DNA from: Selenomonas ruminantium subsp. ruminantium ATCC 12561 | GTDB taxonomy: Bacteria; Bacillota; Negativicutes; Selenomonadales; Selenomonadaceae | NCBI RefSeq assembly: GCF_000424065.1 | Contig: NZ_AUJE01000034.1 | Span: 1-42,194, forward strand | Length of the DNA: 42,194 nt | Direction: 5' to 3' | In this document: positions 1,738-14,913 of the stretch, one piece after another | How the letters are laid out: every line of letters begins with the position of its first letter | How positions within the stretch are numbered: the stretch's first letter is position 1 | The notes under the pieces: model-generated | The model's database searches: none | What the model was told of the DNA's origin: nothing | What the model saw: the letters and a program-made list of their open reading frames with translations, nothing else | Made by a program: the position numbers and the translations under genes

Positions 1738-1772
1738 AAAAAACTGAGACTATGAATAAACATAGCCTCAGT
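1738..1772 (-). terminator. Rho-independent terminator of the amylase transcript
   Basis: On the minus strand an 11-bp stem (CTGAGGCTATG pairing with CATAGTCTCAG, one G-U pair) with a TTTATT loop is followed by six T. It lies about 20 bases after the amylase stop codon and marks the end of the starch locus. Confidence 0.9.
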
Positions 1773-1793
1773 AAGGGGATATAAAGGGATTAT

Positions 1794-4700
1794 TTATTTT
1801 ACCAGCATTAACCCCTGGTTAGGGTTCAAATGAAGCTTAATACGCCCCTCGGACACCATTGCCGCCTGACCTGTAAGCTGGTCTGTAAGCACAGTCCCAT
1901 CAGCGGCGAAGGATGCCGGCAGTTCCACGTCCGTGTCTTTGCCACGATTTAAAACAATCACCGCAGCTTCACCTTTATCATTGGTCCTGGCAAAAGCATA
2001 AACATCACCTTTTGCCAGCAGCGTCTCTACATCACCATGAGCGAAAAGCTGCTTATGCTGCTGCCGCACAGCAATAACCTGCCGATAGAATTCCACCAGG
2101 TCCTTGTCCTCCCGCCCCCAAGGGTAAGTGCGGCGACAATCCGGATCTGCACTGCCATAGACACCGGCTTCATCTCCATAATAAATGGTGGGCATGCCGG
2201 GATACCCCATCAGGAACATGGCCGCCAGTTTCAGCCGGGCCTTGCCTAAGCGGTAGTCAAAGTCCTGCCGGGAAGCCTGCGCCACATTTTCCTTGCCGCC
2301 GCCAAACTTATAGATGGCGCGGACCGTATCATGGGAATCCACGATATTCATCAGATTGTACAGAGCTTCCTTGGGATAGTTCTGCCGCAGCACCGTCAGT
2401 TCATCATCACAGGCTTCTGCCTTGCCCTGATTCAGGAAAAGATCGCCGACAGCAAAGGACAGTTTGTAGTTCATGACAGAGTCAAACTGGTCGCCAGTCA
2501 GGAACTGGGAGCCGTCCTGCCAGATTTCGCCCAGCAGCATGGGCTCATCCCCGGACTTGGTGCGGATGGACTTTACCGATTTGCGGACATTCTGCCAGAA
2601 GCCCGGCGGCACTTCCTTGGCCACATCCAGCCGCCAGCTGGACAGGCCATCATCAAACCACTTCATGATGACACCCTTCTGCCCGTTCCGTCCCCGCAGC
2701 AGATAATCACCCAAATCGGATACCTGTGTCCCGGCTTCACTGCCGGGATAATCCGCATCACGGAATGGCGTCAGGCTGTCAAAGCCCTGCCAATCATGAT
2801 AGGCATACTTCGCCCCCATGCTATCCTTCGTCTTTTCATTACGGATTTCAAACCAGTTTTCCCAATGCCAGGGCGAGAATACTTGTCCTTCAGCTTCCAG
2901 CTGTTTCTTTGCCTCAGCCTTAGCCGCCTCAAGCTTCATATGCTTATCATTCATCAGGTCGTAGATCCGGGACCAGTATTCATAGGCGCCCACGGTCTTG
3001 TACTTGCCATAGCGGTCAAAGTAGATGGAGTCATCCCCCACATGGTTGAACACGCCGTCCATGATGAGGTGCATGCCCCGCTTCTGCATTTCTGCGGCCA
3101 GGGTCTGCAACTCCTTCTCCGTGCCCAGCATGGGGTCGATATGACCGTAATCCACCGCATCATAGCGATGATTGGAGCAGGCGGCCGACAGGGGATTCAC
3201 ATAGATGGCCGTAATGCCCAGCTTCTGCAGATAGTCCAGCTTCTGGGTGATGCCGGCAATATCGCCGCCAAAGAAATCATTGCATTCCCATTTGTCCCCA
3301 TCCGCTGCGGGAGACTTGCTAGCATTGGCCGGCAGATCCGTCCAGTCACGGTGCTGCACGGGCTGATTGCCCCGGGCCGTGGTCCGGGCATTATCATTGG
3401 ACGGATCCCCATTGAAGAACCGGTCTGGGAAAATCTGATAGGCCACCGCTTCCTTGGCCCAGTCCGGGGTATGGTAGTCAGCACTGTACACCGTCAGCTG
3501 GAAGGGCTTAGCCCCCCGCAGTTTAAGGGCGCCCGTATGGCCCGGCTTATCATCATCGCCGTATTCCTTGGTATCATCCAACACGAACTTATAGCCATAG
3601 ATGCCATTTTCCTGCGGACGGATGGTGACTTCCCAATAATCCCGCCCGCCGTGGCTTTCCTTCAAAGCCAGCGGATATTCCATTTTCGTGCCGGCGGCAT
3701 AGTCTGGATTGTACTCATCGCCACCATTAGCCGTAATCTTTGCCTTGTAAAGCACGGCTTTGACATTTGCGGCTTCATCCTTGCCCACAGCCAGCCGCAG
3801 CGTTACCGGAGATCCTGCCTTGATAGCTTCAAAGGGCACGCGGTAAGCCTTGCTCCAGCTATCATGCTCCACCAGCTTTTCCGAAATGCGCCCATCATCC
3901 GCGATCAAGCGGTTTTCCTTGCTATCATAATAGAATGTCACCGCGCCATCTTTTTTGATATGCACCGTCTGCGTCAAGGGCTTTTTGCCCTTCTGCGCCA
4001 CTTTGACCTCGTAGCTGCCAGCTTTCAGCTCCACCGTCTGCTGATAGAACTCCGCCAGCTGCAAGTCCTGCATGGTGTCGTCCTTGAGCGCCCCGAAACT
4101 GCCGCTGAGCTTGGGCAGGCTGGCAGCATCCAGCAGCTTGTAACTCGTGCTGTCGGCAATGGCATGCGTTTTATCATTGTAATAGAACGTAACCTTCTGC
4201 GCCTTGGGCAAAGTCAGCTGCACATTGGCACCGTCAAAATTGCCGCCAAGTCCATAATTCTCTGCCCAGCTGCCGCCCACGGCAATCTTGTAATAGTAAG
4301 TTCCGGCGGGCAGATCCACGGACAGACTGTAGGTATCATGCCCCAGCGGCTTCATCCGGGTGGCCATATCGCCCGGGTCCCAATCCTTCTGGGCGCCGGC
4401 CTTGGACTGCACGGTTCCGGCCAGCACAACCACACGCCCCTGTGCCGCTTCTGCCTTTTTCGCTGCGGCCTGATCCGCCTCCATGCCCTCGTAGCTGACC
4501 GTAGTTTCATGGCTCAGGCTGTCATAGGTAAAGGTGACTTCTTTCTCCGCCGCAAGTTTCAGGCTGATATTGCCGCCATCACGGGCACCGCCTGCACCGT
4601 AATTCTCATTCCAGCTGCCGCCGATGGCAACCTTGAATTCATAATTACCCTTGGGCAGTTTGCCTTTAAGCTGATACTTGCCATTGCCCACAGGCTGCAT

Positions 4701-4922
4701 GATTGTAGCACCATCAGCAGGTGCCCAGTCTGTGCCAGCCCCGAGCTTGCTCTGCACCGTGCCCACCAGCACCACATCCGCGGCACCTACGGCTGCGGCT
4801 TCCGCCACAGAAAAGCTTCTCACGGGGGCGGCAAGGTCTGCCGGCATCCACACTGGTGCGGCCAAAAGCCCGAAGGCCAAGGACATGCTGACGGCCTGAC
4901 GTAAATATTTTTCGCGACTCAT
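1794..4922 (-). CDS. Secreted alpha-amylase/amylopullulanase with tandem X25 modules (GH13)
   Basis: This enzyme of 1042 residues should cut alpha-1,4 and possibly alpha-1,6 bonds of starch or pullulan outside the inner membrane. A signal peptide covers about residues 1-43. Two related beta modules follow at about 49-145 and 163-258, with repeated GTVQSK, DW.P and GGSW.ENYG motifs typical of pullulanase X25 modules. A third, shorter beta segment lies at about 270-345 and a CBM34-like N-domain at about 352-480. The GH13 barrel has region I DGVFNHVGD, region II WRLDVAKE (nucleophile about D766), region III GEIW (acid/base about E799) and region IV NIVDSHD (about D862). A small beta domain closes the chain. 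The ATG at 4922 has GAGGAG 8 bases upstream. The porin gene lies 27 bases upstream, so they are likely cotranscribed. There is no SLH domain or lipobox, so it may be periplasmic or released. Exact bond specificity is inferred. Confidence 0.9.
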   Translation of the reverse strand: MSREKYLRQAVSMSLAFGLLAAPVWMPADLAAPVRSFSVAEAAAVGAADVVLVGTVQSKLGAGTDWAPADGATIMQPVGNGKYQLKGKLPKGNYEFKVAIGGSWNENYGAGGARDGGNISLKLAAEKEVTFTYDSLSHETTVSYEGMEADQAAAKKAEAAQGRVVVLAGTVQSKAGAQKDWDPGDMATRMKPLGHDTYSLSVDLPAGTYYYKIAVGGSWAENYGLGGNFDGANVQLTLPKAQKVTFYYNDKTHAIADSTSYKLLDAASLPKLSGSFGALKDDTMQDLQLAEFYQQTVELKAGSYEVKVAQKGKKPLTQTVHIKKDGAVTFYYDSKENRLIADDGRISEKLVEHDSWSKAYRVPFEAIKAGSPVTLRLAVGKDEAANVKAVLYKAKITANGGDEYNPDYAAGTKMEYPLALKESHGGRDYWEVTIRPQENGIYGYKFVLDDTKEYGDDDKPGHTGALKLRGAKPFQLTVYSADYHTPDWAKEAVAYQIFPDRFFNGDPSNDNARTTARGNQPVQHRDWTDLPANASKSPAADGDKWECNDFFGGDIAGITQKLDYLQKLGITAIYVNPLSAACSNHRYDAVDYGHIDPMLGTEKELQTLAAEMQKRGMHLIMDGVFNHVGDDSIYFDRYGKYKTVGAYEYWSRIYDLMNDKHMKLEAAKAEAKKQLEAEGQVFSPWHWENWFEIRNEKTKDSMGAKYAYHDWQGFDSLTPFRDADYPGSEAGTQVSDLGDYLLRGRNGQKGVIMKWFDDGLSSWRLDVAKEVPPGFWQNVRKSVKSIRTKSGDEPMLLGEIWQDGSQFLTGDQFDSVMNYKLSFAVGDLFLNQGKAEACDDELTVLRQNYPKEALYNLMNIVDSHDTVRAIYKFGGGKENVAQASRQDFDYRLGKARLKLAAMFLMGYPGMPTIYYGDEAGVYGSADPDCRRTYPWGREDKDLVEFYRQVIAVRQQHKQLFAHGDVETLLAKGDVYAFARTNDKGEAAVIVLNRGKDTDVELPASFAADGTVLTDQLTGQAAMVSEGRIKLHLNPNQGLMLVK

Positions 4923-4949
4923 CAATATAGCTCCTCTCAAATCAGGGAA

Positions 4950-6470
4950 TCAGAAATGGAAGTCCAGCCAACTGCGCAGTATGCGGCGGTTATGGGTGGA
5001 AGCTCCCGCCCAGCTGTTGTTGGTATTTTCGGTCAGCTGGGCATACATGGTTTCCCATTCCACATTCTTCCAGGGAACGCATTTGAAACCATAGTACCAG
5101 CCTCTGACGCCATTGATGCCGGTTGGTTCGCGGGTCGCCCACTCGTCATCATGTCCCAGATCCGCCAGGCAGCCGAGATTGACCCATTTCGCATAAAGGC
5201 CATAGCTGCCCACCTTGTTGATATCCGCGCCCCGGTATTCAATCTTGACCGCCAGGTCCCGGTTGGCTTTGCCGTTCTGCGCCCAGTTATTATAGGGCTT
5301 ATTGACATCGGCATCGGATTGGACAATCGAACCGGTGATGGCCAAATCCTTCAGGGGCTTTACCTTTAGGTCCAGTCCATAGAAATTCTTGGCACCGGAA
5401 TAATAGCCACTGTTAAGATCGTTTTCATCCAAAGTGTGCTGGAGAACCCGGGCATAAGCCACATTGGCATCCACATATTTGCCCAAAGGACCCCAGAAAT
5501 CGATTGCGGCAGAAATCGGTGCCCGGTTGGTATAATACTTCGTGTCGGTAACCTGCAAGACACCAGCAGCATTCGGCGCCACCGTTTCCACCGTCTGGCT
5601 CCAATCCGCTGACGGCTTGAAATACTGGCCGCTGAACCACCATCCATGTCCTTTAGGGATCGCATGATAGGTGGCAACACCATCAATCTGACCGCCCAGC
5701 AACAAGTTCTGCATACCGATGCCATTCCACTTGCGGCCGATGTTGGTATACCAGTCATGATTCTTGCCTAAAGCCAGTTCTACCCAGATGTTGGAGATGG
5801 AGCCGTTATGATTGGCATCATTGTTGGCATTATCACGGTCCTGTGCCGAAACGCCCTTATTGATCGTATAGGCCTGGCCATTCTGAGTCTTGACCACCTG
5901 TGTGGTCAGATATTCCCGATCACGGAAACGTGCATTCTTCTCAATCGTAAAGCGCGCCGTCATATGAGGATTGACTTTCAGGGAACCTTCCAAATCCATA
6001 TAGAACCGATTATTATAATCGCCGCCATAGCCATCATTCTTCAGGCCATTGTCGTTGCCCATCTGCACCCGGGCCAGGCCATGAAGCTGGAAGCGATCCG
6101 TCTTTTCCTTCAATTCCTTGATATCCTTGTCATGCGCATCCACACGCCGTTTCAACGTATCAAGTTCACCGGAATATTCTGCGGAAAGTTTGTCCAGCAC
6201 AGCCTTATCACCAAAGCTCGTATCCTTCTTCTGCATGGCCTTGGCCACGATGGAGGCCACCTCATAGCGGGTCATGGTACGTCCGCCCTGGAAAGTGCTG
6301 TCGCCCATGCCTTCAATGACGCCTTCCTTTGCCAGATAATCCAAGGCTTCATAGCTCCAATGATCCTTGGGGACATCGGTGAAACTATCAGCACTGGCAG
6401 CATAGACCTGCCCCATAGCCCCCACGGTCAACCCGGCTAAGATTGCGGCAACTTTCCTGTTCATTTTCAT
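4950..6470 (-). CDS. SLH-domain outer-membrane porin
   Basis: This 506-residue protein has a signal peptide (cleavage about after VYA24) and one S-layer homology domain (residues about 29-80, FTDVPKDHWSYEAL to RYEVASIVAKAM). A coiled coil follows at about 90-126, then a region rich in beta-strand, Tyr, Trp and Gly running to the terminal WLDFHF. The C-terminal Phe is the usual outer-membrane assembly signal. In Negativicutes such proteins (Selenomonas Mep45 type) bind peptidoglycan through SLH and form the barrel in the outer membrane. The ATG at 6470 has GGGAG 8 bases upstream and beats an upstream in-frame start at 6509. Its place between the cytoplasmic alpha-glucosidase/HAD pair and the secreted amylase suggests it admits maltodextrins; that substrate is inference. 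The region before it holds an AT-rich palindrome (TATATTAATATA) that probably belongs to its promoter. Confidence 0.9.
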   Translation of the reverse strand: MKMNRKVAAILAGLTVGAMGQVYAASADSFTDVPKDHWSYEALDYLAKEGVIEGMGDSTFQGGRTMTRYEVASIVAKAMQKKDTSFGDKAVLDKLSAEYSGELDTLKRRVDAHDKDIKELKEKTDRFQLHGLARVQMGNDNGLKNDGYGGDYNNRFYMDLEGSLKVNPHMTARFTIEKNARFRDREYLTTQVVKTQNGQAYTINKGVSAQDRDNANNDANHNGSISNIWVELALGKNHDWYTNIGRKWNGIGMQNLLLGGQIDGVATYHAIPKGHGWWFSGQYFKPSADWSQTVETVAPNAAGVLQVTDTKYYTNRAPISAAIDFWGPLGKYVDANVAYARVLQHTLDENDLNSGYYSGAKNFYGLDLKVKPLKDLAITGSIVQSDADVNKPYNNWAQNGKANRDLAVKIEYRGADINKVGSYGLYAKWVNLGCLADLGHDDEWATREPTGINGVRGWYYGFKCVPWKNVEWETMYAQLTENTNNSWAGASTHNRRILRSWLDFHF

Positions 6471-6528
6471 ACCCAAAGCTCCCTTTCTCCAACTACAACA
6501 CATATTCATATATTAATATATTCATTCA

Positions 6529-6549
6529 GACTCCTCCCATAAAGGAGTC
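6529..6549 (-). terminator. Weak hairpin between HAD gene and porin gene
   Basis: A 7-bp stem (GACTCCT with AGGAGTC) with a 7-base loop follows the HAD stop. No clear T-run follows on the minus strand, so it may only partly stop transcription or may stabilise mRNA. It leaves open whether the PTS-GH13-HAD transcript continues into the porin and amylase genes. Confidence 0.35.
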
Positions 6550-6562
6550 CTTTATGCAATTG

Positions 6563-7336
6563 TCATAAATTCGCCAGCAGCATGCCGCCAACGGAGGAAT
6601 ACACTGCCCTAGCCTTTTCTTTGATGACTTCCCTGGCCGTATCTACCGTGAAGCCGGCGAAGGTTTCCAGCATGGGCAGGTCATTGCTCTCATCACCGAT
6701 GGCATAGACCTCGGCATCCTCCCAATCCATCAGCTCCAGCAGCTTCTTAATTCCCTGACTCTTGCTGACCCCGGCAGGGGTGATATCCACGCTGCAGCCA
6801 TTGGGGTAGGCCGTCACATATTCACCATACTTCTCATTGATGATGGCGCTGGTCTCATCTGCCTCACTGGCTTCGTGATAGCCCAGGCAGAACTGATGGA
6901 TCCGGGGCAGGCTCATGATGTCCTGCTCCTGTATCTTCACAATGGGAAAATCCCACTCCAGCGCCTCCCGCATGATCCAGGAGCCTTCCCGCTCGTGGTA
7001 GAGATATGTCTTGTCCACGGCGGAAAAGGCAAAGTGGAAGGAACGGCGCACGGAAGGCTCCCGCACGATTTCCGTCAGCACTTTCAAGGGAATGTTGCCC
7101 TGCCACAGGGGCGTGCCATCGGCCCGAAGGATGATTCCGCCATTATTGCAGATGGCATAATCGGACTCAATGCCATAGTATTTCAGCTGTGGGCTAAGCA
7201 TGCCGTAGTCCCGGCCGCTGACTACGCCAAATTTATGGCCCGCCGCCCGCCAGGCCTTCACGCCCTCCACGTCCTCGGCCGCAATGGTTCGCTGACGGAA
7301 CAAGGTTCCATCATAATCGCTTGCGCCTATCTTCAT
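6563..7336 (-). CDS. Cof-type HAD-superfamily sugar phosphatase
   Basis: This 257-residue cytoplasmic phosphatase belongs to the Cof/IIB branch of the HAD family, whose members remove phosphate from sugar phosphates and similar small molecules. Motif I is DYDGT (nucleophile D7, acid D9), a Ser sits in VVSGRD near residue 40, the motif III Lys is about K192 (GVSKSQG) and motif IV is GDESND at 214-219. The long insert between motifs II and III is the type IIB cap. Its ATG overlaps the stop of the upstream alpha-glucosidase gene as ATGA, so translation is coupled. Behind a PTS permease and an alpha-glucosidase, a role in dephosphorylating an imported sugar phosphate (for example maltose 6'-phosphate) is attractive but is inference. 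Confidence 0.9.
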   Translation of the reverse strand: MKIGASDYDGTLFRQRTIAAEDVEGVKAWRAAGHKFGVVSGRDYGMLSPQLKYYGIESDYAICNNGGIILRADGTPLWQGNIPLKVLTEIVREPSVRRSFHFAFSAVDKTYLYHEREGSWIMREALEWDFPIVKIQEQDIMSLPRIHQFCLGYHEASEADETSAIINEKYGEYVTAYPNGCSVDITPAGVSKSQGIKKLLELMDWEDAEVYAIGDESNDLPMLETFAGFTVDTAREVIKEKARAVYSSVGGMLLANL

Positions 7337-9027
7337 AAAGCTTCACCTGTTTCCTTGATGTAAATCACTGCTTCATAGGGGCGCAGCTTCCCTTGCCTGC
7401 TATCCGGCAGGCTGGACAGCAGCAGCCGGGCATCCTGCAGTTCCGGCAAATCATAAGCCTCGTCCTGCCCGGTGAAATTCACCAGGGTATAGACCTCCCG
7501 GCAGCCGAAGTGACGCCTGAAAGCCATAACAGCAGGATCATCTGCCAATAGCTCTTTGTAATCGCCCTGCTGCAATACACCTGCTGCTTCACCGGTTTGC
7601 CGCAGAGCGGCCAGCTGGCGATAGAAGCTCAGCACGGAATCGTCCTCCAATGCTTCGCTTTCCACACATTGCCGGCTGAAATCTTCATGCACCGGCAGCC
7701 ATGGGACGCCGGCCGAGAAGCCGGCATTCTTCCCCCTTGTCCACTGCATGGGGGTGCGGGCATTGTCCCGGCTGTAGCGATGGACTATCGTCATCGCCTC
7801 TGCCGGACTTTTTCCTTCGGCTAAAGCCAGTTCATACTGCCCATGGGAAGAAATGTCGTTATAAGCCTCAATATTCTCCCATGCCGTATTGCCCAGCCCT
7901 AGTTCCTGCCCCTGATAAATAAACGGGGTTCCGCGCAGCGTCATCAGCACGGCAGCCATAGCCTTTGCCGCCAGTTTTTTATCGGCATCTGCCGGAAAAT
8001 AATGTTCCACGCAGCGCATCTGATCGTGATTTTCAAAAAATGCAGGATACCAGCCATTGTCAGCCGTAGCGTTCTGACTGGCTGACAGAACCTTTTTCAA
8101 TTCAGGAATAATCTTGGGTGTGTACCCTGTTGCATGGCTCCAAAGTTCTCCATCCGGGAATTCCAGATTCATATGGGAAAATTCAAAGAGCATATCAAAC
8201 GCGCCCTTTTCGCCCACCCATTTGTCCAAATCCTCGGGACTTACGCCATTGGCTTCTGCTACCGTGAAAATATCGTGTCCCTTAAATACCTTGTCCCTGA
8301 ACTCATAGAGGAAGTCCAAAATCCCTGGGGTACTCGCAATCATGGAATGGATATTGACCATACCGTCATCACTATCCGGCTCGCCATCCACAAACTGCTC
8401 CGGCTTCTTGATGTAGACAATGGCATCAATGCGGAAGCCGCCTACGCCCTTGTCCAGCCAAAAATTGGCCGCATCATAGAGTGCCTGCCGCACAGCAGGA
8501 TTTTCCCAATTCAAATCCGGCTGTGCTTCGGCAAAGGTATGCAGATAATACTGCTGACGGGCTTCACACCAGGTCCAGGCACTGCCGCCAAAAATGGAAC
8601 GCCAGTTCGTGGGCGCTGAGCCATCCGGCTTTGCATCCCGCCAAATATACCAGTCTGCATGTGCGCTGTCCCGCGAGCTTGCCGAATCGATAAACCACGG
8701 ATGCTTATCGGAAGAATGGTTATAGACCAAATCCATCACCATGCGAATATTCCGCTTCTTACCTTCGGCAATCAACTCCTCCATATCGGCCATCGTACCA
8801 TACGAGGGGTCAATGGCCGTAAAATCGGCAATATCATAACCATTGTCTACCATGGGCGAAGGGTATACCGGCGTCAGCCATATTGCCCCGACGCCCAAGG
8901 TTTTCAGATAGTCCAATTTGGCTGTAATGCCTTTGATATCCCCCGTGCCACTACCTGTGGTATCGAGAAAACTCTTGGGGTAAACCTGATATACATTTGC
9001 TTTCTGCCACCATTTTAGCTTATTCAT
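7333..9027 (-). CDS. Cytoplasmic GH13 alpha-glucosidase (oligo-1,6-glucosidase / DexB / TreC type)
   Basis: This 564-residue enzyme without a signal peptide hydrolyses short alpha-glucosides in the cytoplasm. It starts with the family's WWQKANVYQVYPKSF. The conserved regions are MDLVYNHSSDKHPWF (about 98-112), GFRIDAI (nucleophile about D201), TVAEANGV (acid/base about E258) and FFENHDQMR (about D335). Length and motifs fit GH13 subfamily 31, which includes oligo-1,6-glucosidase, glucan 1,6-alpha-glucosidase and the closely related trehalose-6-phosphate hydrolase. I cannot choose between free and phosphorylated substrate. The ribosome site (AAGGA) is modest. It follows the PTS gene by 80 bases, with a strong stem between them, and overlaps the HAD phosphatase by four bases. 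It probably splits maltose, isomaltose or their phosphates delivered by the PTS. Confidence 0.9.
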   Translation of the reverse strand: MNKLKWWQKANVYQVYPKSFLDTTGSGTGDIKGITAKLDYLKTLGVGAIWLTPVYPSPMVDNGYDIADFTAIDPSYGTMADMEELIAEGKKRNIRMVMDLVYNHSSDKHPWFIDSASSRDSAHADWYIWRDAKPDGSAPTNWRSIFGGSAWTWCEARQQYYLHTFAEAQPDLNWENPAVRQALYDAANFWLDKGVGGFRIDAIVYIKKPEQFVDGEPDSDDGMVNIHSMIASTPGILDFLYEFRDKVFKGHDIFTVAEANGVSPEDLDKWVGEKGAFDMLFEFSHMNLEFPDGELWSHATGYTPKIIPELKKVLSASQNATADNGWYPAFFENHDQMRCVEHYFPADADKKLAAKAMAAVLMTLRGTPFIYQGQELGLGNTAWENIEAYNDISSHGQYELALAEGKSPAEAMTIVHRYSRDNARTPMQWTRGKNAGFSAGVPWLPVHEDFSRQCVESEALEDDSVLSFYRQLAALRQTGEAAGVLQQGDYKELLADDPAVMAFRRHFGCREVYTLVNFTGQDEAYDLPELQDARLLLSSLPDSRQGKLRPYEAVIYIKETGEAL

Positions 9028-9081
9028 GTTACTTATATCCTTTATCTAAGAACGTTTCCTAATCCGTCCGTTTGGGCTGCC

Positions 9082-9102
9082 GCCTTCCCCTGAGGGGAAG
9101 GC
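9082..9102 (-). other. Strong stem-loop between PTS and alpha-glucosidase genes
   Basis: A perfect 9-bp stem (GCCTTCCCC with GGGGAAGGC) with a 3-base loop. No T-run follows on the transcribed strand, so it is probably an mRNA-processing or stability element rather than a terminator. Confidence 0.5.
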
Positions 9103-9107
9103 TTTGC

Positions 9108-11225
9108 TCAAAAGACCAACACCGGTGTTTCGTTGCATTTGACTTCCGCATCTTCATGTTTCTGCATCTGCGGATAATCCGCGCTGTTGGTCACTGCCAT
9201 GATAACCGTAGTCTGATAACCGGCATCCTTAATCACCTGCTGGTCAAACTGAATCAGCGGCGTACCGGCCTTTACCGTATCGCCAGCCTTGACCAAAGCC
9301 TTAAAGCCCTGACCATTTAACTTCACCGTGTCAATGCCGATATGGATAAGGAGTTCTGCACCATTCTGCAGGCGCAGACCGATGGCATGCAGGCTTTCCT
9401 CCATAATCATGGTGACTTCTGCATCGGCAGGAGCAAATACGGTATCGCCCTCAGGTTCAATGGCAATGCCATCGCCCATCATCTTCTGGGAAAACATATC
9501 GTCATTGACTTCGCTCATATCCATCAGTCTGCCGGATACACAGGCACTTAATTTCATGGCCAGACTGTTGTCCAAAGCAGCCGTTTCTTTTGCTGCCGGC
9601 TGCGCTGCCGTGCTGTCAATCTTTTCACCCTTCAGCAAGGCATCAAAATAGCTGCGTACCTGAGGTACAGAAAGACCCACAATAACCTGAATGGCCTTGC
9701 CGTTTTTCACGAGACCGAAAGCACCGGCCTTGGTAAACTTGCCAACGGCTGCAACCTTATCCGGGTCAGCAACCGTTACCCGCAGACGAGTAGCACAGTT
9801 GGTGACTTCACGGATGTTGTCCGGGCCGCCCAGGCAATCGAGGAACACCTTCGCCTTGATGGCCAGCGCATTATCGGCCAGGCCCATTTCTTCCATTTCC
9901 TTCTTGGCCTGATATTCAGCCTTGGAGAACAATTTATCCTCCACATCATCAGCCGTACGGCCGGGAGTTGCATAATCAAATTTCAGAATCAACGTACGGA
10001 AAACCACAAAGTATATCGCGGTAAAACACAAACCGATTACAATCTGCATGATATACGTTCCGGCATGATACTGGAACAGCGGTATCCAGTTCTGCACAAA
10101 GGCATCAATCAAGCCGCCGCCAAAGTTACCGGCAAGGCCCATGGCATAAAGCGCCGAAGACAGGCAAGCCGAAAGAATTGCATGCACCAGATAAAGCAGC
10201 GGTGCCACAAACAGGAAGGTAAATTCCAACGGTTCCGTAATGCCGCAAATAACAGCCGTAAGCGTTGCCGGGATAAGGAGTGCCGCCGTCTTCTTCCGTT
10301 TTTCCGGCTTAGCACACATATAGATGGCGAGTGCTGCTCCCGGCAGGCCAAATACCTTGGAACTGCCATGCAGGGCAAAACCGCCCTCCGGGAAAAGGTC
10401 TGCCAAAGACTTGCCGCTGACGGCAAAATCATTCAGATGCTGCAGCCAGTAGGCCTGAATGCCGCCATCGCAGACAGCCGGACCAAAGATAAACGGCAGA
10501 TAGATGAAGTGATGTAACCCTGCCGGCAGCAGAATGCGTTCCGAGAACGTATACGCCCAAACACCGACCAACCCACTGGTCTTCAGGAAATCCTGGAACT
10601 GCATAATGGCATGCTGTACAGCCGGCCATACCATACAAAAGAGAAATGCAATGGGAATCATCACCGCAAAACCTACCGCCACGACAAAAGCAGGCCCTTT
10701 GAAAATCCCCAGCCAGTCGGGAATATTCGTATCATAAAAGCGATTGTGCAGATACGCCGTCATGCAGGCGATGAAGATGGCGCCGAGCATGCCCATGTCC
10801 AACGTCTTGATATTGGCAATCATGGCAAGCCCCGTACCTGCACCTGCTGCCTGACTGTAATCCACGCCGAAGTATGCGCCATGCAAGCTCAGGAACCCGG
10901 CAATGAAATAGTTAAACAGCATATAGATGACGAAACCTTCCATCGCACAACGGGCAGGTTCCTTTTTCGCAAAACCGATGGGTACGGCTATGGCAAAGAG
11001 AATGGGCATCTGGGCAAATACCGTCCAGGCTCCCTGTTCCACCACAAACCAAAAATCGTACCATACTGTTCCCTGAGCGGCTATACTCCCCAATATGCCC
11101 TCATTCTTACAGATGATGGATAATGCTACCGTCAAGCCAAAGAATGCAAACAGGATGACTGGCGTATACATCGCGCCGCCAAACCGCTGCATACCCTGCA
11201 TCAAACGGTCTTTACTGATTGTCAT
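9108..11225 (-). CDS. PTS alpha-glucoside permease, IICB-IIA fusion (glucose family)
   Basis: This 705-residue permease imports and phosphorylates a sugar using phosphate from HPr. An N-terminal IIC membrane domain (about 15-420) carries about ten hydrophobic segments and the GITEPLEF signature at about 328-335. A IIB domain follows (about 450-530) with the phospho-Cys in TNCATRLR (about C477). A C-terminal IIA(Glc/Crr-like) domain (about 575-700) carries HAIGL (about H613) and the phospho-His in LLIHIGIDTV (about H628). The sequence resembles alpha-glucoside/maltose permeases of the Glc family (MalX, AglA, GlvC group). I chose the ATG at 11225 because AGGGGG lies 7-8 bases upstream and the longer frame runs back through a terminator hairpin. 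The linked RpiR regulator and GH13 enzyme support maltose or another alpha-glucoside as substrate. Confidence 0.92.
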   Translation of the reverse strand: MTISKDRLMQGMQRFGGAMYTPVILFAFFGLTVALSIICKNEGILGSIAAQGTVWYDFWFVVEQGAWTVFAQMPILFAIAVPIGFAKKEPARCAMEGFVIYMLFNYFIAGFLSLHGAYFGVDYSQAAGAGTGLAMIANIKTLDMGMLGAIFIACMTAYLHNRFYDTNIPDWLGIFKGPAFVVAVGFAVMIPIAFLFCMVWPAVQHAIMQFQDFLKTSGLVGVWAYTFSERILLPAGLHHFIYLPFIFGPAVCDGGIQAYWLQHLNDFAVSGKSLADLFPEGGFALHGSSKVFGLPGAALAIYMCAKPEKRKKTAALLIPATLTAVICGITEPLEFTFLFVAPLLYLVHAILSACLSSALYAMGLAGNFGGGLIDAFVQNWIPLFQYHAGTYIMQIVIGLCFTAIYFVVFRTLILKFDYATPGRTADDVEDKLFSKAEYQAKKEMEEMGLADNALAIKAKVFLDCLGGPDNIREVTNCATRLRVTVADPDKVAAVGKFTKAGAFGLVKNGKAIQVIVGLSVPQVRSYFDALLKGEKIDSTAAQPAAKETAALDNSLAMKLSACVSGRLMDMSEVNDDMFSQKMMGDGIAIEPEGDTVFAPADAEVTMIMEESLHAIGLRLQNGAELLIHIGIDTVKLNGQGFKALVKAGDTVKAGTPLIQFDQQVIKDAGYQTTVIMAVTNSADYPQMQKHEDAEVKCNETPVLVF

Positions 11226-11261
11226 TGTAATGCCCCCTAATTCATTATGATTTAGTATTGC

Positions 11262-11277
11262 TTCGCTAATTAGAGAA
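11262..11277. promoter_or_regulatory. Candidate operator before the PTS gene
   Basis: A near-palindrome TTCGCTAATTAGAGAA with a perfect CTAATTAG core lies between the regulator's terminator and the PTS ribosome site, where an operator is expected. The upstream RpiR protein is the obvious candidate binder, but nothing in the sequence proves it. Confidence 0.35.
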
Positions 11278-11283
11278 TAGCGC

Positions 11284-11318
11284 AAAAAGCCCGCGAACAC
11301 AATAGTTTCGCGGGCTTT
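11284..11318 (-). terminator. Terminator of the RpiR regulator gene
   Basis: A perfect 12-bp stem (AAAGCCCGCGAA with TTCGCGGGCTTT, 11286-11297 and 11307-11318) is followed on the minus strand by TTTTT. It separates the regulator from the PTS operon, which therefore needs its own promoter at about 11226-11285. Confidence 0.9.
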
Positions 11319-11374
11319 CGGCACATCAGCCATTGCCTGTATTTTGTTCCATTTCCTGTACTTTGTTCCAGCCC

Positions 11375-12145
11375 CTATTGCACCTTGCGCTGCAGGTACA
11401 TCCGGTACTTCACATACCAGACTTCCACCAGGATGAAATAGGGCATCATCGACTGAAAGGCCGTATGCTCATCATCGGCATCGTAGAGCTGAAAACGTGC
11501 CGGCGAAACGTAGAGATTCACCGTAGAAAGACTGGCTAAGGTATTGTCATGCAGTTTCGTAATAGAAATAAAGGGTACATCCAGCAATTGCAGCTGCCGG
11601 GCAAAATCCACCACCAACGAGGTCTCCCCGGACAGCGAAACAAAGATAAAGAGATCATCTGCAGTAAGGCTGCGGGCAATAGACATAAACTCCTCCCGCC
11701 CGCTGATTTCATAAATCAGCACATTATCGTAAAAGAACAGGCGCTTTAACTCCTGCGCCACATTGCTCTGCACATAGCCGGAAGCAAAGATAAACACCCT
11801 GTTGGCTTCGTGAATCAAGCGGCTGGCACTGTCAAAATTCCGCTTAAAGACCTTGCTCGCGGTCTGGGCATAGAAATTCTGCAAGTCCTCCAACACGTCT
11901 TCTTTATAATAGACATGCGTTTCATCTTCCATCTTGAGTACTGCCTTCAAATCTCCAAAACCGTCAAAGCCCAGTTTTTGGGCAAAGCGCACAATGGTTG
12001 TTGACGACACGGCACAATTTTTTGCCAGTTCGTGAATGGAGATATGACGTGCTTCTGCCCGATGCTTCACTATGTATTTATAGATGACCATATCGGTATC
12101 GTTCAAGTTTTGCCGATGCTGATTAATGATTTCTTCCAATCGCAT
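11375..12145 (-). CDS. RpiR-family transcriptional regulator (MalR/GlvR-like)
   Basis: This 256-residue regulator has an N-terminal RpiR helix-turn-helix (about 1-75, with SIHELAKNCAVSSTTIVRFAQKLGF). A SIS sugar-phosphate-binding domain follows (about 105-240, with FASGYVQSNVAQEL and FVSLSGET). RpiR proteins sense phosphorylated sugars; relatives GlvR and MalR control maltose/alpha-glucoside PTS operons. The ATG at 12145 has a GGGGGG-rich ribosome site 5-6 bases upstream. A strong terminator ends the gene just before the PTS permease on the same strand, so it is transcribed separately from its likely target. It is divergent from the sigma-factor gene, and the shared region contains an inverted repeat that could be its operator. 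Whether it activates or represses cannot be read here. Confidence 0.9.
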   Translation of the reverse strand: MRLEEIINQHRQNLNDTDMVIYKYIVKHRAEARHISIHELAKNCAVSSTTIVRFAQKLGFDGFGDLKAVLKMEDETHVYYKEDVLEDLQNFYAQTASKVFKRNFDSASRLIHEANRVFIFASGYVQSNVAQELKRLFFYDNVLIYEISGREEFMSIARSLTADDLFIFVSLSGETSLVVDFARQLQLLDVPFISITKLHDNTLASLSTVNLYVSPARFQLYDADDEHTAFQSMMPYFILVEVWYVKYRMYLQRKVQ

Positions 12146-12206
12146 ACAAATCCCCCCATATCTGCCCTAAGTATAGCAAAATTACAAGCATTGCGCCAAA
12201 TATTTA

Positions 12207-12237: not shown

Positions 12238-12288
12238 AAAATGCCCCTGAATACTACACTAAAACCAACAAAAATATGGGAGGATTGC

Positions 12289-12867
12289 ATGATGTACAGC
12301 CTGACCGAAGAAAATGAACTCATTGCCCTTGCCCAACAGGGCAGTACCGCAGCCTGCGAAAAATTGCTGGACGCCTATGCCGGACTACTCAAAAATATGC
12401 GCCATCGCTATGCCCACACGCCTACCGGAAAAATTCTGGATGATGATATGCAGGGCATTTTGCAATTAGCCTTCATGGAAGCCATTCATTCCTTTGAAAC
12501 AAAAGTCGGCATACACTTTGCCGCCTTTCTGCAAAGCCGCCTGCACGGCGCCATATACAAGGCATTCAAGAACGCCTGCAGTTACAGCAGCCACACAGCC
12601 CATCCCACTTCGCCTGACGATACGGACAGCAGTTCCTTCTTCGATACGCTGGAAAATCATACCCCCACCCCAGAACGCCAATTATTGGCACATGACAAAA
12701 TCCAGACAATCTTAACCGGATTAACCCCAACAGAAAAAGAACTGCTGTACCTTATCTACGTACGTGAACTGCCGCAAAAAACTGCCGCCCGCCTGCTAAA
12801 TATCAGCACACAGGCCGTAAGCAAGCGAAAGCAAAAGTTAATCGCCAAAATAAAAAAACTCGCCTAA
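12289..12867 (+). CDS. Small sigma-70-family RNA polymerase sigma factor
   Basis: This protein of about 192 residues has a sigma region 2-like segment (about 10-95, including DDMQGILQLAFMEAIHSFE and FAAFLQSRLHGAIYKAFK). A Ser/Thr/Pro-rich linker follows at about 100-130, then a region 4 helix-turn-helix (about 140-190, LTPTEKELLYLIYVRELPQKTAARLLNISTQAVSKRKQK). It lacks regions 1.1 and 3, so it is an alternative sigma factor or a sigma-like regulator. Two adjacent ATGs (12289, 12292) follow GGGAGGA at 5 and 8 bases; either may be used. No anti-sigma gene is adjacent. Its stop codon lies inside the loop of a bidirectional terminator. Its target genes cannot be inferred here. Confidence 0.85.
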   Translation: MMYSLTEENELIALAQQGSTAACEKLLDAYAGLLKNMRHRYAHTPTGKILDDDMQGILQLAFMEAIHSFETKVGIHFAAFLQSRLHGAIYKAFKNACSYSSHTAHPTSPDDTDSSSFFDTLENHTPTPERQLLAHDKIQTILTGLTPTEKELLYLIYVRELPQKTAARLLNISTQAVSKRKQKLIAKIKKLA

Positions 12868-12879
12868 GCGAGTTTTTTT
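12852..12879. terminator. Bidirectional terminator between convergent genes
   Basis: The stem AAAAAAACTCGC with GCGAGTTTTTTT and a four-base loop (CTAA) carries A- and T-runs on both sides, so it can work on either strand. It serves the sigma-factor gene (plus), whose stop lies in the loop, and the export-protein gene (minus). Confidence 0.92.
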
Positions 12880-12886
12880 ATTTACC

Positions 12887-13717
12887 TTAATCCGTTACAG
12901 CCTTGTAATAAGTCCAAGCCTGGAAATACGGCAAAATATCTTCCTGCCAGAAAATTGCATTGGTCTTCGGCACATAGACGATATCCCCATCCTGCACAAA
13001 GACATTCTGCGTCAAATCATGACGGCGAATAAAGTTCTTGATATTCAGCTGACGATAGTACATCGTGCCATCAACAACACGGATAACCTGCACTCTCGTG
13101 CTGCGGCCATACTTGGTAATACCACCGGCAGAAGCCAATGCCGCATAGGCATTCAAATTATCGATATTCATGTTCTGAATACCAGGATTTTTTACTTCCC
13201 CCATGACATAGACTTTACGTGGCCCATAGGATTTAACAGACAGATACATCTCAGGGATTTTCACATAACGGCTCAATTTCTCACGGATAAGCTCCGTTGC
13301 CTCATCCAAGGTCAAGCCAGCCAGTTTCACACTGCCGACATAAGGAAGCGAGGCCTTACCATCCGGGCCAATCTGTACCGAATCCGCTTCGCCTTTTTCA
13401 TTGGCAGAAGAACCCGTCGTATAGCCCAAACCATTAGGAAAGCCCAATACGCTCAGTACGATGACATCGTATTTTGCCAGACGATAATCCCCCGTCAACT
13501 GACCAGTCTTTAAGCCAGCAACCGTAAAAACATCCTCGTTTTCCACATAATTTTCCGACGCGGGCACAACATTGTCCGTATTTTTAACTTCCACGGACTT
13601 ATAACCAGCAGTCTCACTCATCACTGCGCCAGCCTCGGACGCAGCCTGCACGGAGCTGCCGGTCAGACAGAGCACTGCTGCCAGCAGGCAACTGCAAAAC
13701 AAATCTTTTCTTGCCAT
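12887..13717 (-). CDS. Periplasmic polysaccharide export protein (Wza-like, SLBB)
   Basis: This 276-residue exported protein has a signal peptide (about 1-25, ending VQA). A polysaccharide-export domain follows at about 70-150 (GDYRLAKYDVIVLSVLGFP, IGPDGKASLPYVGSVKLAGLTLDEATELI), then an SLBB domain at about 155-245 (KVYVMGEVKNPGIQNM, LASAGGITKYGRS, VQDGDIVYVPK). Wza-type proteins form the outer-membrane channel for capsule or exopolysaccharide. There is no clear lipobox, unlike classical Wza, and no capsule synthesis genes are next to it, so it may be an isolated export component. The ribosome site GAGGGAG lies 7 bases before the ATG. A LacI regulator gene lies 80 bases upstream on the same strand. 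Confidence 0.88.
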   Translation of the reverse strand: MARKDLFCSCLLAAVLCLTGSSVQAASEAGAVMSETAGYKSVEVKNTDNVVPASENYVENEDVFTVAGLKTGQLTGDYRLAKYDVIVLSVLGFPNGLGYTTGSSANEKGEADSVQIGPDGKASLPYVGSVKLAGLTLDEATELIREKLSRYVKIPEMYLSVKSYGPRKVYVMGEVKNPGIQNMNIDNLNAYAALASAGGITKYGRSTRVQVIRVVDGTMYYRQLNIKNFIRRHDLTQNVFVQDGDIVYVPKTNAIFWQEDILPYFQAWTYYKAVTD

Positions 13718-13797
13718 TATGACACTCCCTCAAAAGTCGATTTCATTTCTATTCCATTTGATTATAACGCTTAACACTTATGACCGTCAACCAGCAT

Positions 13798-14841
13798 TCA
13801 TATTATTGACGGCAAAGAGGTTGAATTTACAGGCAAAGTTTTTTCCATGAGATTCTGCACACTTTCCCGCTCAACAAAAAGCAGCGGCATATCTAGATTC
13901 GTCTCTCCCTCTTCTCCACCGCGCAGGATATTAAGCAGATAACTGGCAGCCTTCATGCCCATAAGTTCATAATCAAAAGCTACAGTAGTCAGTGCCGGAT
14001 AAACGACAGCGCCGACATCGTAACCACCAAAGCCTGCTACCGATATATCCCCGGGAACTTTAACCCCGCGCTCATGGAAATAGCGAAGTATACCCAAACT
14101 GATATTATCTGTAGCCCCTACAACCACACTGGGTGCTAATTTACGAATTTCTTCTGCCCGATTGTAAGCAGACAAAAAATCAAAACCCGTTTCTACAAAA
14201 TCCACCTTCGCATCGGTACGTCCCTCGCAAAAGCCTGCGACAAAACCTTCCTTGCGCTCGATGCCTACCGCTTCATCGCTTTCCGTTACCCCGGCAAACA
14301 CAGCGTGCTTATGCCCCATCTGCTGCAAATACACCCCCATACGGTGACCGGCTGCCGCATCATCGATCTTCAGGCAGTGAACCGATGCGTTTTTCTGCCC
14401 TGTGTAAAGAATTGGCAACGCCCATTCCTGCGCACGACGTACATGTTCAGCAGTAAGTCCGACAGAATCAACTAAAATAGCATCGACACCCTGCTGCTGC
14501 AGTTTTTGCATGCTTTCCAATTCTTTTTTGCTGGAAAGCTGACTCACCAGCAAGATGCTCTGATACCCTTCCGGCTCCAGTACACGGGTAATCCCGGAAA
14601 GCAGCTTGCCCACAGTCACCGAGTCCATACGCGGGAGCACAATGCCAATCAGCTTGCTTTCCCGGGTCTTCAAGCGCTTGGCAAAAAAATTCGACTGAAA
14701 CCCCGTTTGCTCAATCGCCTTGCGCACCTTGGCCTGCTTTTCTGCACTGATATAGCCATTGTTCAAATAGCGGGAAACCGTGCTTTTCGAAACCCCCGCC
14801 AAATCTGCCACATCTTTGATGGTTACTTTTTGTTGTTCCAT
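13798..14841 (-). CDS. LacI-family transcriptional regulator
   Basis: This repressor of about 347 residues has an N-terminal LacI helix-turn-helix (VTIKDVADLAGVSKSTVSRYLN, about 6-27) with the hinge helix near 50-58. A periplasmic-binding-like effector domain follows (about 60-335; LIGIVLPRMDSVTVGKLLSGI, GVDAILVDSV, PGDISVAGFGGYDVG). The ATG at 14841 has GGAG 6 bases upstream; a TTG four codons earlier has no better site. Relatives respond to sugars such as sucrose or fructose derivatives, but the effector cannot be named. It ends 80 bases before the export-protein gene on the same strand. A half-site TGTAAACG before its start resembles LacI-type operators and could mean self-regulation. Confidence 0.9.
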   Translation of the reverse strand: MEQQKVTIKDVADLAGVSKSTVSRYLNNGYISAEKQAKVRKAIEQTGFQSNFFAKRLKTRESKLIGIVLPRMDSVTVGKLLSGITRVLEPEGYQSILLVSQLSSKKELESMQKLQQQGVDAILVDSVGLTAEHVRRAQEWALPILYTGQKNASVHCLKIDDAAAGHRMGVYLQQMGHKHAVFAGVTESDEAVGIERKEGFVAGFCEGRTDAKVDFVETGFDFLSAYNRAEEIRKLAPSVVVGATDNISLGILRYFHERGVKVPGDISVAGFGGYDVGAVVYPALTTVAFDYELMGMKAASYLLNILRGGEEGETNLDMPLLFVERESVQNLMEKTLPVNSTSLPSII

Positions 14842-14913
14842 ATATATCTCCAATTTCTGTTTTCGTTACGTTTACAATTACTATATTAGGAGATTTTACA
14901 AAAAAAAGCAAGA

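Follow-up and report, generated by a model that had tools for sequence, protein, structure and literature searches.

A putative starch/maltose utilisation operon of Selenomonas ruminantium with an SLH-domain porin and a phosphotransferase system

The starch utilisation system (Sus) of Bacteroidota, a SusCD-type polysaccharide utilisation locus (PUL), takes up its substrate by the TonB-linked SusC/SusD proteins under the regulator SusR, and we compare with it, and with other described systems, a six-gene locus of Selenomonas ruminantium subsp. ruminantium ATCC 12561 (NZ_AUJE01000034.1, positions 1 to 42,194; this whole stretch of 42,194 nucleotides is called the window). Like Sus, the locus clusters an extracytoplasmic alpha-glucan enzyme, an outer-membrane uptake protein, intracellular processing and regulation, but it has a porin with an SLH domain, a phosphorylating phosphotransferase system (PTS) and an RpiR regulator where Sus has a TonB-linked pump and SusR. 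When the six proteins of the operon and four from its flanks were scanned with Pfam, no SusC or SusD family was found, so that the locus is not a Sus-type PUL, in keeping with an earlier sequence-only reading, which had placed an SLH porin in the stead of SusC/D. Gram-positive PULs (gpPULs) are defined by a glycan-degrading enzyme, an ATP-binding cassette (ABC) or PTS transporter and a transcription factor in one locus; the window locus brings together a glycan enzyme, a PTS and a transcription factor, and adds an outer-membrane pore, which is useless to monoderms. The glv operon of Bacillus subtilis consists of an RpiR regulator, a PTS of the TIGR02005 type and a maltose-6'-phosphate glucosidase of glycoside hydrolase family 4 (GH4; other families are abbreviated likewise). 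The pairing of a TIGR02005 PTS with RpiR is common to the glv/mal operons and the window locus, but the latter lacks GH4, having a HAD phosphatase and a GH13 enzyme instead, and possesses a porin and an amylase besides. In the MalT-MapP-MalP route of Enterococcus faecalis, maltose is imported by a PTS and dephosphorylated before cleavage by maltose phosphorylase; the window locus would share PTS import and dephosphorylation followed by cleavage, but with a HAD phosphatase and a GH13 hydrolase, and the E. faecalis route has no porin.

SLH porins of the OmpM/Mep45 kind share with the window porin an SLH domain, a helical stalk and a porin barrel, whereas the window porin belongs to a separate sugar-operon clade, is richer in Trp and stands in a catabolic operon. 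In the portions of the OmpM literature cited here, such porins are described in an envelope gene cluster (PMC5007114) and are treated as tethers and general pores (PMC10628300, PMC5007114). In the open-access literature we found no SLH porin described as part of a sugar operon, subscription papers being mostly outside the search. Within that literature no described counterpart was found for a glycan utilisation locus with a wall-tethered SLH porin and a PTS, which appears to be new and which the sequence-only reading, too, had not known as a described system. The passage of polysaccharide products through the outer membrane of diderm Firmicutes seems little studied.

The locus is formed by six closely spaced open reading frames (ORFs) on the minus strand, from 12145 to 1794, with the following features.
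12170..12199, minus strand: promoter-like site upstream of rpiR, TTGGCG - 18 nt - TATACT, with TG before the -10 (consensus match)
11375..12145, minus strand: RpiR-family regulator with an SIS sugar-phosphate domain (Pfam HTH_6 77.2 bits, SIS 63.4 bits)
9108..11333, minus strand: PTS enzyme IICBA, alpha-glucoside type, with EIIC, EIIB and EIIA domains (TIGR02005 752.9 bits, cut-off 607.3)
7333..9027, minus strand: cytoplasmic GH13, predicted alpha-1,4-glucosidase, maltase-like (best PDB match 2ze0)
6563..7336, minus strand: HAD-IIB (Cof-type) phosphatase, candidate maltose-6'-phosphate phosphatase (Pfam Hydrolase_3 122.3 bits)
4950..6509, minus strand: SLH-domain outer-membrane porin, OmpM class by its predicted fold (Pfam SLH 40.6 bits, cut-off 20.8)
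1794..4940, minus strand: neopullulanase/amylase-like X25-GH13 (Pfam X25 210 bits, Alpha-amylase 172.3 bits)
1743..1772, minus strand: terminator-like hairpin, operon end (12 pairs, loop 6, T tail)

The order, strand and places of the genes are those given by the sequence-only reading, and Pfam and NCBIfam profile scores uphold the family assignment of all six proteins. From rpiR to the amylase gene, the gaps between consecutive ORFs are 41, 80, -4, 53 and 9 bases, the largest being 80 and the GH13 and HAD genes being the pair that overlaps by 4 bases, and the left edge proposed earlier (1738) falls close to the terminator-like hairpin, read from 1772 to 1743. The PTS protein possibly starts, as many homologues do, at an internal ATG (residue 37). 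Among 13 aligned sequences, the window included, the TGCTATACT stretch of the promoter-like site is identical in eight, varied in four and absent from one. Promoter- and terminator-like sites were no more frequent in the whole region than in shuffled sequence, and the weight given to these two sites therefore comes from position and conservation rather than from the match alone. An inverted repeat upstream of rpiR (TGACGAA/TTCGTCA) was considered as an RpiR operator and dropped, the repeat not being conserved. The window corresponds to contig C30 in a genome of 3.39 Mb (99.97% complete), and the nearest relatives of its PTS, 98-99% identical, come from genomes named Selenomonas ruminantium. 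Spacing, families and conservation agree with the earlier proposal of one operon-like set that comprises a regulator, a PTS, enzymes for processing in the cytoplasm, an SLH porin and an exported amylase; judged by its sequence, the locus is real, conserved and operon-like, and its six genes would be co-transcribed.

A scan of genome contigs based on the PTS yielded 45 related loci. The HAD gene is present in 42, the remaining three stopping at a contig edge, RpiR in 39 and an SLH porin in 22, two of these being incomplete at contig ends; the porin count is a lower bound, because several porin-less loci also end early. The amylase gene is present in 15 and follows the porin gene directly in all 15. 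With this degree of conservation around 45 related PTS genes, a chance association of the genes is excluded. We then have, from a class-wide test of 250 Negativicutes genomes of at least 80% completeness (thresholds: E 1e-150 or better for the PTS, 1e-50 for the porin type and 1e-100 for the amylase), the PTS in 69 genomes, a porin of the locus type in 38 and the amylase in 28. The porin adjoins the amylase in 26 of the 27 judgeable genomes, 25 of them from the class-wide search and one, G019, recognised on its fetched contig (G212, in which the amylase is cut by the contig start, was left out), and the linkage in relatives on which the sequence-only reading had partly staked its case is thus found. 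In 22 of these 26 genomes, across families f1, f2 and f6, the PTS is on the same contig as the pair; in G093 and G123 the pair is separate from the PTS locus and has other surroundings, and G134 and G019 were not judgeable for separation of pair and PTS, being split by contig ends (in G134 the two may be neighbours). The six-gene set is not fixed: 32 of the 69 PTS genomes have no porin of the locus type. Twelve of the 38 porin genomes have no amylase; the porin is close to the PTS in seven of these (G024, G053, G216, G220, G222, G236 and G245) and away from it in the other five. G004 (L059) and G017 (L011, L060) lack both members of the porin-amylase pair, and there the HAD gene is directly followed by the gene that follows the amylase gene in the window.

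Gene order and spacing, families, conservation, the linkage of porin and amylase, the clade to which the porin belongs and its predicted fold make it likely, in our view, that this diderm Firmicute has here an operon for starch/maltose utilisation that includes an outer-membrane pore of its own. The biochemical steps, the binding to the wall and the induction we infer as follows, with starch as the probable substrate. The X25-GH13 enzyme, exported over the inner membrane, would cut alpha-glucan into sugars of maltose size; the OmpM-class porin, tethered to the cell wall by way of its SLH domain, would let them cross the outer membrane; the alpha-glucoside PTS would import and phosphorylate them to maltose-6'-phosphate; the HAD phosphatase would strip the phosphate and the GH13 alpha-1,4-glucosidase split maltose to glucose; and RpiR, sensing sugar phosphate via its SIS domain, would control the gene set. 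Several observations weigh against this scheme. G248 has the amylase with no porin beside it, five genomes (G025, G070, G097, G115 and G130) have the porin, at E 1e-50, away from any PTS of the family, and the Megasphaera loci L028, L029, L033 and L046 have a porin and no amylase at the locus. There is, moreover, no known outer-membrane route for the amylase, the two secretins of the genome lying in other contexts (by eye, one in a pilus cluster of Tad type and the other in PilQ-like surroundings beside haem genes), and the porin, with the predicted fold of a general porin, need not be specific. The earlier interpretation is, overall, partly supported.

The porin gene likely starts at 6470 (MKMNRK...), and the product has a signal peptide by eye and a C-terminal Phe. 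A model of its structure, made with AlphaFold from an alignment of 19 locus porins (mean pLDDT 72.2, with extra strand pieces), has OmpM1 of Veillonella parvula as its best solved fold relative (8bys; Foldseek E 2.9e-16; VIA Z 26.8 and root-mean-square deviation 3.1 over 309 residues), other porins coming next at VIA Z about 19, and by sequence the protein matches 8bys only over residues 18-137, which cover the SLH domain and the stalk. Because the predicted fold best fits OmpM1 and the SLH domain and stalk match by sequence, we assign the porin to the OmpM class; it has the N-terminal SLH domain and, by the predicted model, the OmpM porin barrel. A further mark of this class is binding to polyamine-modified peptidoglycan. 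A LamB-like porin, with the 18-strand fold of maltoporins, is only tentatively set aside: the fold matches listed point to OmpM1 and general porins, and the absence of LamB there excludes nothing.

The porin could on this basis be an ordinary OmpM paralogue serving general diffusion and tethering, whose place in the operon only raises the porin dose with the sugar and confers no selectivity, and to this explanation we give a chance just short of even. It accords with the fit to OmpM1, described as a general diffusion channel in the part of the source cited (PMC10628300), and with the 3 to 21 SLH-porin matches in genomes of the same genus, but the porin keeps its place beside PTS-GH13 in families f1, f2, f4 and f6, and both its phylogeny and its composition set it apart. 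We built a tree of 85 SLH porins (360-620 aa, taken from stretches around matches in 18 genomes of 17 genera, with one 321-aa match excluded) by a quick search with support from the Shimodaira-Hasegawa-like approximate likelihood ratio test (SH-aLRT) and no bootstrap. The five porins of starch-type loci, one of which (L074) is from a Megasphaera-type locus without amylase, form one clade (SH-aLRT 100), and four porins from GH1 or cellobiose-PTS (beta-glucoside) operons make up its sister group; the nine-member clade formed by the two (SH-aLRT 100) holds, in this sample, sugar-operon porins only (9/9 rows). Sugar-operon porins elsewhere in the tree are those of L050, L087 (counted on a weak PTS match of 22 bits), L089, L090 and L105, and 71 of the 85 SLH porins lie outside such sugar operons. 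Beyond residue 130, Trp makes up 4.7% of the five porins of starch-type loci, against 3.3% of the other nine from sugar operons and 1.8% of the remaining 71 (Mann-Whitney p about 2e-4 each, the rows not being independent), and four of the five sugar-operon porins outside the clade exceed the median of the remaining porins. Starch-type and other porins showed no difference in the total aromatic content and net charge of their barrels, and differed weakly in length. LamB possesses an aromatic slide. The raised Trp of the starch-type porins could belong to the membrane girdle and is only a hint. The window's own genome gave 3-5 SLH-porin matches, whereas genomes of the same genus have up to 21, many in tandem, and this low number reflects either a true loss or the loss of tandem copies in assembly.

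The layout extends past starch, since SLH porins also occur in beta-glucoside, GH32 and MFS-GH3 operons. By Pfam, we compared 119 operon neighbours of SLH porins outside starch-type loci with 119 genes drawn at random from 13 of these genomes. Among the families listed (the first 25, so that a family unlisted in the control may still have 1-2 members there), major facilitator superfamily (MFS) transporters number 10 among the porin neighbours against 2 among the random genes, and the porin neighbours further include GH1 (5), PTS EIIC (5), GH32 (2) and GH3 (2). When GH1, GH3, GH32, GH4 and PTS-IIC were instead identified by reference proteins, they made up 13 of the 119 porin neighbours and 2 of 341 control genes (Fisher p 9e-7), three of the 13 being the reference proteins themselves and the two control matches being one GH4-PTS pair. 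The porin neighbours also include PTPlike_phytase, POT-type PTR2 and the peptide-binding ABC family SBP_bac_5, two of each, and operon-bound SLH porins may extend beyond sugars.

The beta-glucan counterpart of the window locus is L067:5210-13947 (G070), in which an RpiR-like gene is followed in a row by an ORF of 461 aa where EIIC would stand, an SLH porin, two small ORFs where IIB/IIA would stand, and GH1, GH16 and GH9, the GH16 and GH9 proteins having signal-like N termini. Here GH1, GH16 and GH9 were called by Pfam, RpiR and the porin by BLAST, and the PTS genes by size and by analogy with L066, the EIIC and IIB of which scored. The window's own genome has a second sugar-linked SLH porin (L050:3378-7932, contig C13), between an MFS transporter and a GH3 gene. 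Similar pores in other sugar operons suggest a general way of sugar uptake in diderm Firmicutes. We would go further only tentatively, and rate as somewhat less than evenly probable, that Negativicutes possess a class of outer-membrane loci for sugar utilisation that is peculiar to them, in which wall-tethered OmpM-type porins serve as substrate-tailored channels, with one clade comprising starch/maltose and beta-glucoside branches, separate recruitments to GH32 and other sugar operons, and PTS or MFS importers. If so, the tether that holds the outer membrane would also be an inducible, substrate-matched sugar gate. The most interesting part is this sugar-operon clade of tethered porins and not the single locus, and the conserved locus of porin and starch enzyme, together with the beta-glucoside sister clade, makes substrate-specific uptake through tethered porins directly testable in Selenomonas, Mitsuokella and Megasphaera.

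The amylase has two full X25 domains and one degenerate (at 55-145, 169-263 and 288-344) and the motifs of the catalytic region, and its best PDB match is the neopullulanase/alpha-amylase II 1jf5. The earlier label 'secreted' holds as far as the signal peptide, which predicts export across the inner membrane, and no further. A lipobox is absent by eye from the window enzyme and 15 relatives, the Pfam scan of the window amylase gave no SLH or other anchor family, and no type II secretion cluster was recognised beside the two secretins, the neighbours of which were judged by eye. With the neopullulanase match, these features would suit a periplasmic amylase, as are MalS and SusA, which would trim maltodextrins from other rumen organisms, after their passage through the porin, to maltose for the PTS. 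We regard such a location as nearly as probable as its opposite, but the X25 domain is linked with binding of starch polymer, and the one to three full X25 domains per enzyme in the window and its relatives fit contact with a polymer outside the cell, where the enzyme would act in the scheme that we prefer.

Inside the cell, the PTS belongs to the alpha-glucoside family by its TIGR02005 score. A trehalose operon was rejected: the genome has a separate trehalose pair, namely a GH13 over the TreC cut-off (825.6 bits on TIGR02403) and a PTS that shares 52.6% identity with TreB of E. coli, and because of this pair the window PTS-GH13 is not the trehalose system. The window GH13 falls below the TreC equivalog cut-off (556.2 against 799.05 bits on TIGR02403), its closest solved structure is 2ze0, an alpha-1,4-glucosidase, and the sequence at the presumed nucleophile is GFRIDAI in all seven aligned locus GH13s, compared with GLRLDVV in E. 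coli TreC; the enzyme is accordingly only predicted, from these comparisons, to be a maltase-like alpha-1,4-glucosidase and not a trehalose-6-phosphate hydrolase. It could also be that this GH13 itself hydrolyses maltose-6'-phosphate in the manner of TreC, the HAD phosphatase handling another sugar phosphate. We find this rather doubtful: the protein does score 539.5 on the PRK10933 phosphotrehalase subfamily model (cut-off 535), and has in common with TreC a loop (HMNLEFPDGELW vs HHLKVDYPGGEKW) that is absent from 2ze0, but the lysines of the TreC loop, which have a role in phosphate binding, are not kept, and both the score under the TreC cut-off and the Ala after the presumed nucleophile, as in 2ze0, argue for the maltase-like assignment.

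The imported product is most likely maltose-6'-phosphate, which sharpens the earlier reading, because in some of the related operons a maltose-6'-phosphate glucosidase (GH4) is present and HAD is missing. Thus GH13, porin, amylase and GH4 accompany the PTS, with HAD absent, in L058, L063, L064 and L154, the GH4 of L063 matching the maltose-6'-phosphate glucosidase 1u8x at E 5e-221, and this GH4-bearing, HAD-less form also occurs in f6 (genus g28, genomes of 5.1-5.4 Mb) and f2 (g24). GH4 and a PTS of the same family, with no GH13 or HAD nearby, are found at eight loci (L148-L152, L158, L160 and L161) of variable gene order, in seven of which RpiR is in the fetched stretch. No match to GH4 (PF02056) was found in the whole of the window's own genome (99.97% complete), and GH4 is present in 7 of 22 genomes of the same genus. 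Since GH4 stands in place of HAD in some sister operons and is absent from this genome, HAD, whose sole solved relative at E 1e-10 is YidA (1rkq), probably dephosphorylates maltose-6'-phosphate, and GH13 would then cleave the maltose, although for the order of the two steps we hold the balance to be about even. A strict reading of HAD for GH4 is weakened by the four GH4 porin-amylase operons, which still keep GH13, by L153, which has GH4, GH13 and HAD, and by G019, which has GH4 after the porin-amylase pair. The locus nevertheless predicts a PTS maltose route with a HAD phosphatase standing in for GH4. That the PTS imports another alpha-glucoside (isomaltose or sucrose isomers) and that the starch enzyme lies beside it by accident is improbable, for although TIGR02005 permeases take several alpha-glucosides and many related loci carry PTS-GH13-HAD and no amylase, the pair and the PTS share a contig in the 22 genomes noted above, across three families.

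An ABC route for maltodextrin import may exist elsewhere in the genome, which has three SBP_bac_8 and five SBP_bac_1 matches (that on C5 is PotABCD-like by eye). Besides TreC, the other GH13 matches in the genome are two ORFs with glgB-glgA-like surroundings, a frame of 674 aa on C10 and a short one on C25; one of the two ORFs in the glgB-glgA-like surroundings (1165 aa) is 34% identical to the window amylase and has no signal peptide by eye. Some genomes of the same genus possess, besides the window-type locus, a second maltose-type operon of RpiR, GH4 and PTS (L160 and L161, in G005 and G015). The PTS gene looks broken or misassembled at two related loci, the match being in two halves about 490 bases apart in L042:10001-12626 and in two overlapping frames in L041:1804-3916.

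Upstream of the locus, at 12241-14853 of the window, lie a divergent sigma-like gene, a Wza-like export gene and a LacI regulator, which recur in L004, L005, L011 and L039. Past the terminator-like hairpin, at 191-1693, are genes of 252 and 241 aa, the first without a Pfam match, and this pair is kept downstream in several relatives, including L011, which is without porin and amylase.

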